Shown: positions 17,076 to 33,145 of the stretch, piece after piece
Layout of the letters: every line of letters starts with the position of its first letter
How positions within the stretch are numbered: position 1 is the stretch's first letter
Assembly (NCBI RefSeq): GCF_013839425.1
Contig: NZ_JACDNP010000001.1
Coordinates: 1 to 64,000 of the forward strand
Reading direction: 5' to 3'
Length of the DNA stretch: 64,000 nucleotides
Source of the DNA: Halorhabdus salina
Lineage (GTDB): Archaea; Halobacteriota; Halobacteria; Halobacteriales; Haloarculaceae
Program-made: the position numbers and the translations under genes
The notes under the pieces: model-generated
Databases searched by the model: none
What the model was told of the DNA's origin: nothing
Seen by the model: only the letters and a program-made list of their open reading frames with translations

Positions 17076-18257
17076 TCACTTCGCTGTCGAGACGATCTTG
17101 ATGACGTCACCTTCGGACAGTTCCGTATCCTCGGCGATCCGCCTATTCTCACGGGCGTCGACGGCGTGGAGGTAGCCATCACCGATATCGGAGTGGACAG
17201 CATATGCCAGATCCAGCGGCGTCGAACCACGCGGCAGGAGGAAGGCGTCGGGCAACATGTTCCCCTGGCCGTCTGTCCAGTGGGTCTCGTTCTGGACGGG
17301 ATAAACAGTGATGTGATCGAGTATGTCGTATGCCGCCTCGTCAAGCGCGGTCTGGACACCCGTTCCGCCGTGAGCGGCCATGACCTCGCGGATCCGTTCG
17401 AGTCCGTCTCGCTGATTCCCGCTGACATCACTGACGAGTTCGAAGTCCGCATCCCCGGGATCGTACGCGAGGACCCCGGACTCGGCCGCCCGACGGAGCG
17501 CGAGTTCGCCGTCGGCGGTCGTCGGAATCGTCGCCTCGTTGCGCTCTTTTAAGCGCTGGACGTTCTCGGTGCTGGCGGCGTCGGCCTTGTTGGCGACGAC
17601 GACGATAGGTTTGGTCCGCTCGCGGATCTCCCGAGCCAGGGCTTCGCGGTGCTCGTCGGTCCAAGCCAGGGGATCCTCGGGATAGTCCACGGCTCGTAGC
17701 GTCCGGGCGACATCGAGTTCTGTCGCGCCCACGCCCGTGAGAAATTCCGTGAGTGCCTCGTCGAGATCGAAGTCCGGCGAGCGAGACTGTCGCTCGACGG
17801 TTTCCCAATTGCGGTCGACGACGCTTGCCAGCCAGAGGTCCATCTCCTGCTCGATGAAGTCCAGATCCTCGACGGGATCGTGTTCGCCGACGCCGACCGG
17901 TTCGCCTTCTTCGTCGGTTTCACCGGCCGCGTCGACGACGTGCAATATGGCGTCAGCGTCGGTCAATTCGTCGAGGAACTGGTTACCCAGCCCGCGCCCC
18001 TCGTGTGCACCCGGGACTAGTCCCGCAACGTCGAGCAACTCGACGGGAACGTAGCGCTTGCCGTCGTGACAGTGATCGCTGTCACACCGTTGGTCGCGGT
18101 CGAGACACGGGCAGTCGGTGCGGACGTGGCTCACCCCTCGATTGGCGTCGATCGTCGTGAACGGGTAGTTAGCGACGTCGACATCGGCCATCGTCGCCGC
18201 GCGATAGAATGTAGACTTGCCGGCGTTTGGCTTGCCGGCAAGCGCGAGTGAGAGCAT
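17076..18257 (-). CDS. OBG/YchF-like GTPase with C-terminal TGS domain
   Basis: 393 aa. G1 '[10 protein letters not shown]' at residues 7-16, G2/G3 region '[12 protein letters not shown]' and '[16 protein letters not shown]', G4 'NKAD' near 232, and a C-terminal TGS domain ('[23 protein letters not shown]'). A Cys-rich insertion ('[15 protein letters not shown]') after the switch is typical of the archaeal branch and could bind zinc. Translation-associated GTPases of this group bind ribosomes; the cellular role in archaea is not established. It is convergent with the aminotransferase gene. Confidence 0.88.
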
Positions 18258-18376: not shown

Positions 18377-18995
18377 TCAGGCCTCGGTCATCTGGACGAT
18401 CTGGATCAACGAATAGATCGGCACACCCTCGACCGTGTCGTCGCCGTGTTTGTCCGTGAGGACGGCCCCAGCGACGTGATTCCCTCCGCGCTCGCGGACG
18501 ATCTTGATCGTCTCGGCCATCGTCTTGCCCGTGTCGATGTTGTCATCGACAATGTAACAGTCCCGACCGCGGATCGACGCGAAGTTCCGCGAGAACGGCC
18601 CAGAATTCGCCTGTTCGTCGTCCCAGCGGTGCTTACTCGGCGTATAGACGCTCAGATCCATGTCGAGATCGCGCGCGACAGTCGTTGCCAGCGGCCCGCC
18701 AGATGTGCCGATCCCGATCGTCAAGTCGACGTCTTCGCCTTCCTTCGAGGGGGGTCCGCCATCGGGCGACCGGCGGAGGACAGCCGTTGACTGTCCCGGC
18801 CCACCACACTCCAGTCGACGTGGATATCGTGAGGTGTCTCGACTGTAGTGTCGGGGCGTTACCACCGTCGGTCTGCTCGAGTAGCCAGCTTACGGTCTCC
18901 CGGGAGACGTTCAATTCGTCCGCGATTTCGCCTTTCGACAGGCCAAGCCCAGTGAACTCCTCGGCACTGTCGATACGATCGTCCAGTGACTTCAT
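18377..18995 (-). pseudogene. gfcR: gfcR (PRTase-fold sugar regulator) with two frameshifts
   Basis: The N-terminus ('[20 protein letters not shown]' followed by the HTH '[20 protein letters not shown]') is in one frame. The middle ('[18 protein letters not shown]' and '[13 protein letters not shown]') is in a second frame. The phosphoribosyltransferase core ('[20 protein letters not shown]', the PRPP-binding 'YIVDDNIDTGKTM') is in a third. One missing C at each of two C runs (on the minus strand, 18856-18853 and 18754-18749) restores a single full-length frame of about 206 aa. GfcR activates semi-phosphorylative Entner-Doudoroff and gluconeogenesis genes in Haloferax. Either a real pseudogene or two homopolymer sequencing errors. 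Confidence 0.8.
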
Positions 18996-19066: not shown

Positions 19067-19600
19067 CTACTCGCCGTCGCTGCCCCTCTCGCCAGCGTCT
19101 GTTCCGTCTGTAGTGGCATCGTCGTACTGCGATTTGAGGGAAGCCAGCTCCGCGTCGACATCGACGGCAACTGCGTCGTCTTCGGCATCTTCTGGGAGTT
19201 GCTGTTCGAGCCGTCGGTTGAGGCGTTGAGCGTCCGAAAGCAGCTCGCGTGTCCGTTCGTCGCCCGATTCGGTATCGATTCTTGACTGTACCTCGGAGAG
19301 GGCCTCGTCGATTCGATCGACGACGGACTGACCAACCGCAGGGGCCGTCGACTCCTCGGCCGGCCGGTCGGTGTCGTCGGCCAGTTTGAGCGCGCGCTGT
19401 AGCAACTGGAGCATCTTGATGTTCGTCTGGAGGATGAGAATCGTCGCCGGGATCGTCACCTCGGTCGTGAATTGTCGAAGGCGGTCGAGGCCACGGCGGT
19501 GTTGTGGCCCAGCCTTGACCGTCCGCTGTAACTCCTGGAGCGTCCTGACGAGCTCGCCCACCAGTTCCCGGGGTGAGGGACCTACCGATTGGTTACTCAT
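19067..19600 (-). CDS. Conserved haloarchaeal helical protein, function unknown
   Basis: 177 aa. Residues 10-80 are a conserved-looking helical block ('LVGELVRTLQELQRTV', 'LRQFTTEVTIPATILILQTN', 'IKMLQLLQRALKLAD') followed by a variable acidic coiled-coil tail with 'ELASLKSQYDD' near the end. No membrane segment of clear length, although 'TIPATILILQTNIKMLQLL' is hydrophobic and could sit at the membrane surface. Start at 19600 is preferred to the Met three codons earlier because a TATA element lies about 25 bases upstream. Confidence 0.75.
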   Translation of the reverse strand: MSNQSVGPSPRELVGELVRTLQELQRTVKAGPQHRRGLDRLRQFTTEVTIPATILILQTNIKMLQLLQRALKLADDTDRPAEESTAPAVGQSVVDRIDEALSEVQSRIDTESGDERTRELLSDAQRLNRRLEQQLPEDAEDDAVAVDVDAELASLKSQYDDATTDGTDAGERGSDGE

Positions 19601-19623
19601 AGGGCACATTTCGAAAGCAAGCC

Positions 19624-32305: not shown

Positions 32306-33145
32306 ATGGTTCGTACGTTTTACGATGTGTTAGGCATCCCCGAATCTGCAACCGTCGAAGAAATTGAATCAGCGTATCGAGAACGCGTCAAGGAGACCCA
32401 TCCGGACGTCACTGACGACGAAGACGCCCACGAAACCGTCCAGCGCGTTATCGAAGCAAGAGACGTCCTCACGGACGAAGCCGAACGGTCCAAATACGAT
32501 CGGCTAGGTCACGAAACCTACGTCGGTCAGACAGTGCACGAGCCCATAGACGCCGACAGTACCGCTGCTGAACCGTCCGACAGCCCCGAAGAAACCGTTT
32601 CGACAGCCAGTGATAACAGCGAGTGGACGAACGACACGCAGACGGCTGCCGACGACTGGTGGCAAAAGCATGCCGACCAAGCGGCAGGTGGCCGGACAAC
32701 ACCGAGGGGCCGGACTGTCGGAGAACACGTCGCCGAGACAAACACGGAACGTTCCAGCTGGACGAACGGGTCCGGATACGCCGTCCGCCAGCCGACCGCA
32801 TCGAACGAACTCAACTGGAGTCGGCTCTTCCCGGGCAGCCAGTCGGCCGTGCTCCTGCTAGCAGCGTTCATCTGCTATCCAATGCTCGTCGTTTCGAGTG
32901 TCTTTCCGTCGTTCCCGCTGGTCGTCAATCTCGTCGTCAGTGCCTGTACGCTCCTCATCACAATCTATCTCGTCTCGATCCCTGAGGTAGGGACGCTCGC
33001 GTTCGGGTTCTGGAGTCTAGTGACAGTCGGGGCACTCGCCCTCGGGCATCTCGATCCGTTCTCCATCGCTGGCGTCCTCGCGATGACGGTGACGTGGGTA
33101 CCGCTCGTCCTCTCACTGGCCGTCTTCGCCCTCGTGAGACCCTGA
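32306..33145 (+). CDS. Membrane-anchored J-domain protein
   Basis: 279 aa. Residues 1-65 are a J domain with the HPD motif ('KETHPDVTDDED') and 'RSKYDRLG'. A long polar, Ser/Thr/Asp-rich linker follows, then three to four hydrophobic helices from about residue 180 to the end. It would recruit and stimulate an Hsp70 (DnaK) at the membrane; it lacks the zinc and substrate-binding domains of DnaJ. Its 3' end overlaps the convergent menD gene by 33 bases. TATATG at 32258-32263 is a likely TATA box. Confidence 0.85.
   Translation: MVRTFYDVLGIPESATVEEIESAYRERVKETHPDVTDDEDAHETVQRVIEARDVLTDEAERSKYDRLGHETYVGQTVHEPIDADSTAAEPSDSPEETVSTASDNSEWTNDTQTAADDWWQKHADQAAGGRTTPRGRTVGEHVAETNTERSSWTNGSGYAVRQPTASNELNWSRLFPGSQSAVLLLAAFICYPMLVVSSVFPSFPLVVNLVVSACTLLITIYLVSIPEVGTLAFGFWSLVTVGALALGHLDPFSIAGVLAMTVTWVPLVLSLAVFALVRP

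Follow-up and report, generated by a model that had tools for sequence, protein, structure and literature searches.

GfcR, formerly annotated as PyrE1 or as an orotate phosphoribosyltransferase-like protein, is an activator of haloarchaeal sugar catabolism. The closest described systems are those of Haloferax volcanii and Haloarcula hispanica, whose GfcR proteins belong to family NF045507 and have an HTH plus PRTase layout. Deletion is known from these two model haloarchaea and impaired or stopped growth on sugars. According to PMC11519228 (citing Johnsen et al. 2023), the H. hispanica deletion strain failed to grow on fructose, mannitol and sorbitol and grew poorly on glucose, and the genes for GAPDH I and pyruvate kinase are activated by GfcR in H. 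volcanii.

The window analysed here, a stretch of 64,000 nucleotides from Halorhabdus salina, carries on its minus strand (18995-18377) the HTH, linker and PRTase parts of one gfcR gene in three successive frames. The layout and the piecewise profile match are those of the two described proteins; the locus differs from them by two frameshifts, by substitutions and by the lack of an intact copy in the genome. The pieces, the deletions and the intact neighbours were located as follows.

18855-18995, minus strand: HTH part of the putative gfcR pseudogene (N-terminal, codons 1-47), frame 1, start ATG at 18995; NF045507 positions 1-51/52
18755-18854, minus strand: linker and start of the PRTase domain of the putative pseudogene, frame 2; NF045507 positions 55-89
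18377-18754, minus strand: PRTase domain of the putative pseudogene, frame 3, to stop TGA; NF045507 positions 91-214; PF00156 at 47.7 bits
18853-18856, minus strand: deletion 1, one base, between 18855 and 18854 in a CCCC run; GCCGCC in the sister; from DNA alignment with six intact orthologues
18749-18754, minus strand: deletion 2, one base, in a CCCCCC run; GAY-CTN-CTN (Asp-Leu-Leu) in relatives; from DNA alignment
17076-18257, minus strand: YchF-related GTPase gene (NF007171), intact neighbour; marker of the syntenic locus in 7/7 Halorhabdus genomes
19067-19609, minus strand: DUF7547 protein gene, intact neighbour on the other side of the locus in 7/7 Halorhabdus genomes

The pieces matched NF045507 with 176, 57.5 and 34.8 bits (E 9e-52, 2e-15 and 1.5e-8), and a chance match is ruled out because three colinear pieces hit the same GfcR family. 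They stay short of the curated cut-off (300 bits, full-length match), which the intact Halorhabdus orthologues exceed, that of the sister genome G002 with 329.8 bits. Identity with the sister protein was 87% in the HTH part (residues 1-47), 65% in the linker and early PRTase part (18755-18854) and 87% in the PRTase part. The gene grouped with that of G002, as the genomes do in the genus tree, and had the same neighbours as across the genus; by tree position and gene neighbours the locus can thus be assigned to gfcR as an NF045507 orthologue. The original prediction had named the gene GfcR and described the split into three frames at these coordinates, with four Cs at 18853-18856 and six at 18749-18754, and both points held. 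It had also proposed looking for another gfcR- or pyrE-like copy; a search of the genome (25-contig draft, estimated 99.99% complete) returned no second gfcR copy.

Translated from the ATG, the sequence goes out of the GfcR frame at codon 48 and meets a stop after 120 codons, so that the predicted product is an HTH without a PRTase domain; no premature stops were found in the gene beyond those that the shifts cause. The PRTase part is still open within a 162 aa ORF that starts at GTG 18865, of which the first ~39 residues are in a wrong or foreign frame.

The two deletions were read from the assembled sequence and its alignment to orthologues rather than from sequencing reads. Alignment with six intact orthologues placed one missing base after nucleotide 141 (18855/18854) and one at about nucleotide 242 (18754-18749), which bears out the two one-base losses that had been predicted. 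At the first site GCCCC stood against GCCGCC in the sister, and at the second GACCCCCC stood against GAY-CTN-CTN in all aligned relatives. Because the relatives differ at both sites and have a C run at neither, the runs are not inherited runs minus one C. The lost bases may as easily have been a G and a T as two Cs; the second site would have needed a deletion and at least one T-to-C change, or else the loss of a C together with two T-to-C changes. The complete regulator was predicted to return on addition of two Cs. The frame does open, but reading through with the broken codons masked gave Pro-Pro where relatives have Leu-Leu, and six residues that are invariant in 42 orthologues are changed.

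Whether the breaks reflected true loss or sequencing error had been left open. An error in sequencing or assembly, by which two bases of the C runs were missed although the cell carries an undamaged gene, would agree with the position of both breaks inside C runs of the assembled sequence, with the flanking frames that stay open and with the draft state of the assembly (25 contigs). We nevertheless consider it very improbable. Ortholog pairs were compared between 304 kb of the window's genome (the window plus 240 kb, roughly one tenth of its length) and 400 kb of the sister genome; only sustained frame changes were counted, as raw counts had been raised by shadow ORFs, by starts set too far upstream and by gaps where variable regions were aligned. 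Among 119 pairs (136 kb), gfcR alone showed mid-gene breaks of this kind. Nine other listed genes had shifts at their starts or ends only, which are explained by start choice or variable tails. In the scanned 304 kb, runs of C or G occur 1438 times at a length of exactly 4 and 34 times at exactly 6. Even if ten random breaks had occurred over the stretch, the chance that two would fall in gfcR is about 0.001. Nor would homopolymer slips account for the six invariant-residue substitutions and the raised omega described below, and the relatives' lack of a C run at either site also speaks against such slips. Separately, the gene for a J-domain protein (window 32306-33145) has a one-base shift relative to its sister orthologue near the C-terminal end, which changes the last ~35 residues.

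The remainder of the gene was damaged as well. Of 65 columns that show no variation among 42 intact orthologues, the window gfcR has a different residue at six (L7R, L14F, A35V, A64V, K98T and P174H); when each intact orthologue was left out in turn, departures averaged 0.1 with a maximum of 1. Rates were estimated with a custom-written codon model, not a standard package, on a gfcR tree built by FastTree. Own-branch omega was 0.229 against a background of 0.0615 (p = 0.0035), and omega = 1 was not rejected for this branch (p = 0.07); the sister branch had an omega of 0.07 and rejected 1. Where the other four species share one residue, the window gene has 15 amino-acid and 6 synonymous changes and the sister 2 and 6 (Fisher p = 0.04). 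Own-branch omega was not raised in either neighbour gene. Since omega rose and yet stayed below 1, the gene was probably under purifying selection for part of its branch and then not; a value below 1 is as expected for a gene that worked for part of that time. The locus thus shows both disabling mutations (the two one-base deletions) and relaxed purifying selection, by which pseudogenes are recognised.

The window gfcR is therefore very probably a genuine pseudogene of the haloarchaeal HTH-PRTase activator, judging from its sequence and that of its relatives. Real decay is preferred to a sequencing slip because of this other damage and because two other members of the genus have lost the gene separately; of the alternatives left open originally, loss is thus favoured by relaxed selection, by changes at invariant sites, by the lack of other breaks in 119 genes and by two further losses, and error is disfavoured. 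Two close homopolymer shifts should not be called an error before the rest of the gene has been checked. A mixed case, in which one deletion is real and the other an error in the sequence of a pseudogene, was judged very improbable: a single disabling mutation would be enough for the observed relaxation, but nothing specific points to this case and the sampled error rate is low.

It is least probable, and hardly credible, that the split gene still works, either as separate HTH and PRTase proteins or by ribosomes that shift frame twice. The open PRTase part, with its 87% identity to the sister, could be read in this way; the ORF, however, begins with its foreign-frame residues, and omega was raised in the PRTase part alone too (0.21 against 0.06, p = 0.055). 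Two shifts would be required within 100 bases, the split form occurs in no relative, and programmed frame shifting was rejected as the RNA near the sites shows no unusual folding (z -1.1).

Decay of gfcR, the preferred reading, also extends to other members of the genus. gfcR is missing as well from the Halorhabdus genomes G004 and G005, which keep the DUF7547 and YchF-related GTPase genes on either side; their losses concern the same locus as the window gfcR. The gap between these two genes is 813 bases in the window's genome (G000), 284 in G004 and 197 in G005. The G004 gap holds a gfcR relic, TTGKTMTETIQIIQMTE followed by a stop, which aligned to gfcR and its downstream flank of the congener G001 with a best score of 77, where shuffled sequences reached 35 at most; in the G005 gap the downstream flank alone is recognisable. 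Thus nearly the whole gene is left in the window, a short relic in G004 and nothing of the gene in G005. The neighbour-gene tree was (((G000,G002),(G004,G001)),(G003,(G005,G006))), by which topology the three losses lie on three separate tips; the gfcR tree was consistent with vertical descent.

We suggest that selection on gfcR relaxed after the split from G002, the closest sampled relative; the gene then acquired substitutions at sites that are normally invariant, and two deletions of one base each left it in three frames. Elsewhere in the genus the locus has been lost on at least two further occasions, in one case by an internal deletion that left a relic and in the other completely. The window's species would accordingly make no active GfcR, and we infer that the gene became dispensable in these lineages because their glycolytic genes are controlled in another way.

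Genes for pyruvate kinase (pyk), GAPDH-I (gapI) and 1-PFK-type kinases were present in 7/7 Halorhabdus genomes, which rules out target-gene loss as the cause of gfcR loss. The pyk promoter (L168, G000:C1:191863-191910) contains the palindromes TACCAC-N8-GTGGTA and TATCAGA-N4-TCTGATA, 10 bases apart; both were found in all seven genomes, with or without gfcR and with no more than one mismatch per palindrome, and were seldom seen elsewhere at that quality, so that they are essentially confined to pyk. Long conserved blocks were also present in the pyk promoters of all seven genomes, and the gapI promoter had conserved blocks in all. No regulon motif emerged from a search for a GfcR operator, and the palindromes were rejected as such since they are essentially confined to pyk and present irrespective of gfcR. 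Because the promoter elements have not decayed with gfcR loss, some other factor probably makes use of them.

True loss had been predicted to rewire sugar metabolism. Such rewiring is hypothetical: gapI, pyk and the conserved promoter blocks persist in genomes that lack gfcR. In Halorhabdus utahensis, pentose-pathway genes were constitutively expressed on all tested sugars (PMC8551123), which agrees with loose control of sugar use in the genus but is no proof of it for glycolysis. It is possible, although doubtful, that the sugar-catabolism activator has been repeatedly dispensable in Halorhabdus and that the glycolytic genes are now constitutive or controlled by a different regulator acting through the conserved promoter palindromes. 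The genus offers natural gfcR-plus and gfcR-minus sister species, pairs in which one can ask how an archaeal activator is replaced. That a genus of carbohydrate users has lost gfcR three times independently in nature, with the genes of known targets kept, shows that the role of GfcR is not universal. The finding is one of ordinary recurrent decay of a known regulator, to which recurrence within one genus adds some interest.

Across the family, 77 of 103 Haloarculaceae genomes that are at least 95% complete passed the NF045507 cut-off, and one more (G011) had a full-length match below it. Full-length gfcR was absent from 25 of the 103 (about a quarter), the window's genome among them. Several Haloarculaceae (G008, G018, G114, G116 and G077) had two full-length copies each, the opposite of the Halorhabdus losses. 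In genus g11 (G016, G034, G095, G097 and G099), most genomes showed one in-frame stop inside the GfcR profile match, which may reflect a match overrunning the normal gene end. A PfkB-type match with one internal TAG was found at G000:C21:182037-182930 and at G002:C1:984599-985492, and may represent an old pseudogene common to both genomes or again a match that overruns the gene end. The GfcR proteins of Halorhabdus and genus g3 (L010-L013, L015 and L016) have GIGKSG and DDNIDTG, stretches that we take to be the usual PRPP-binding places in such domains, where those of other Haloarculaceae (L017 and L022-L024) have GIEKAG and DDTITSG; ligand preference may differ between the two groups.
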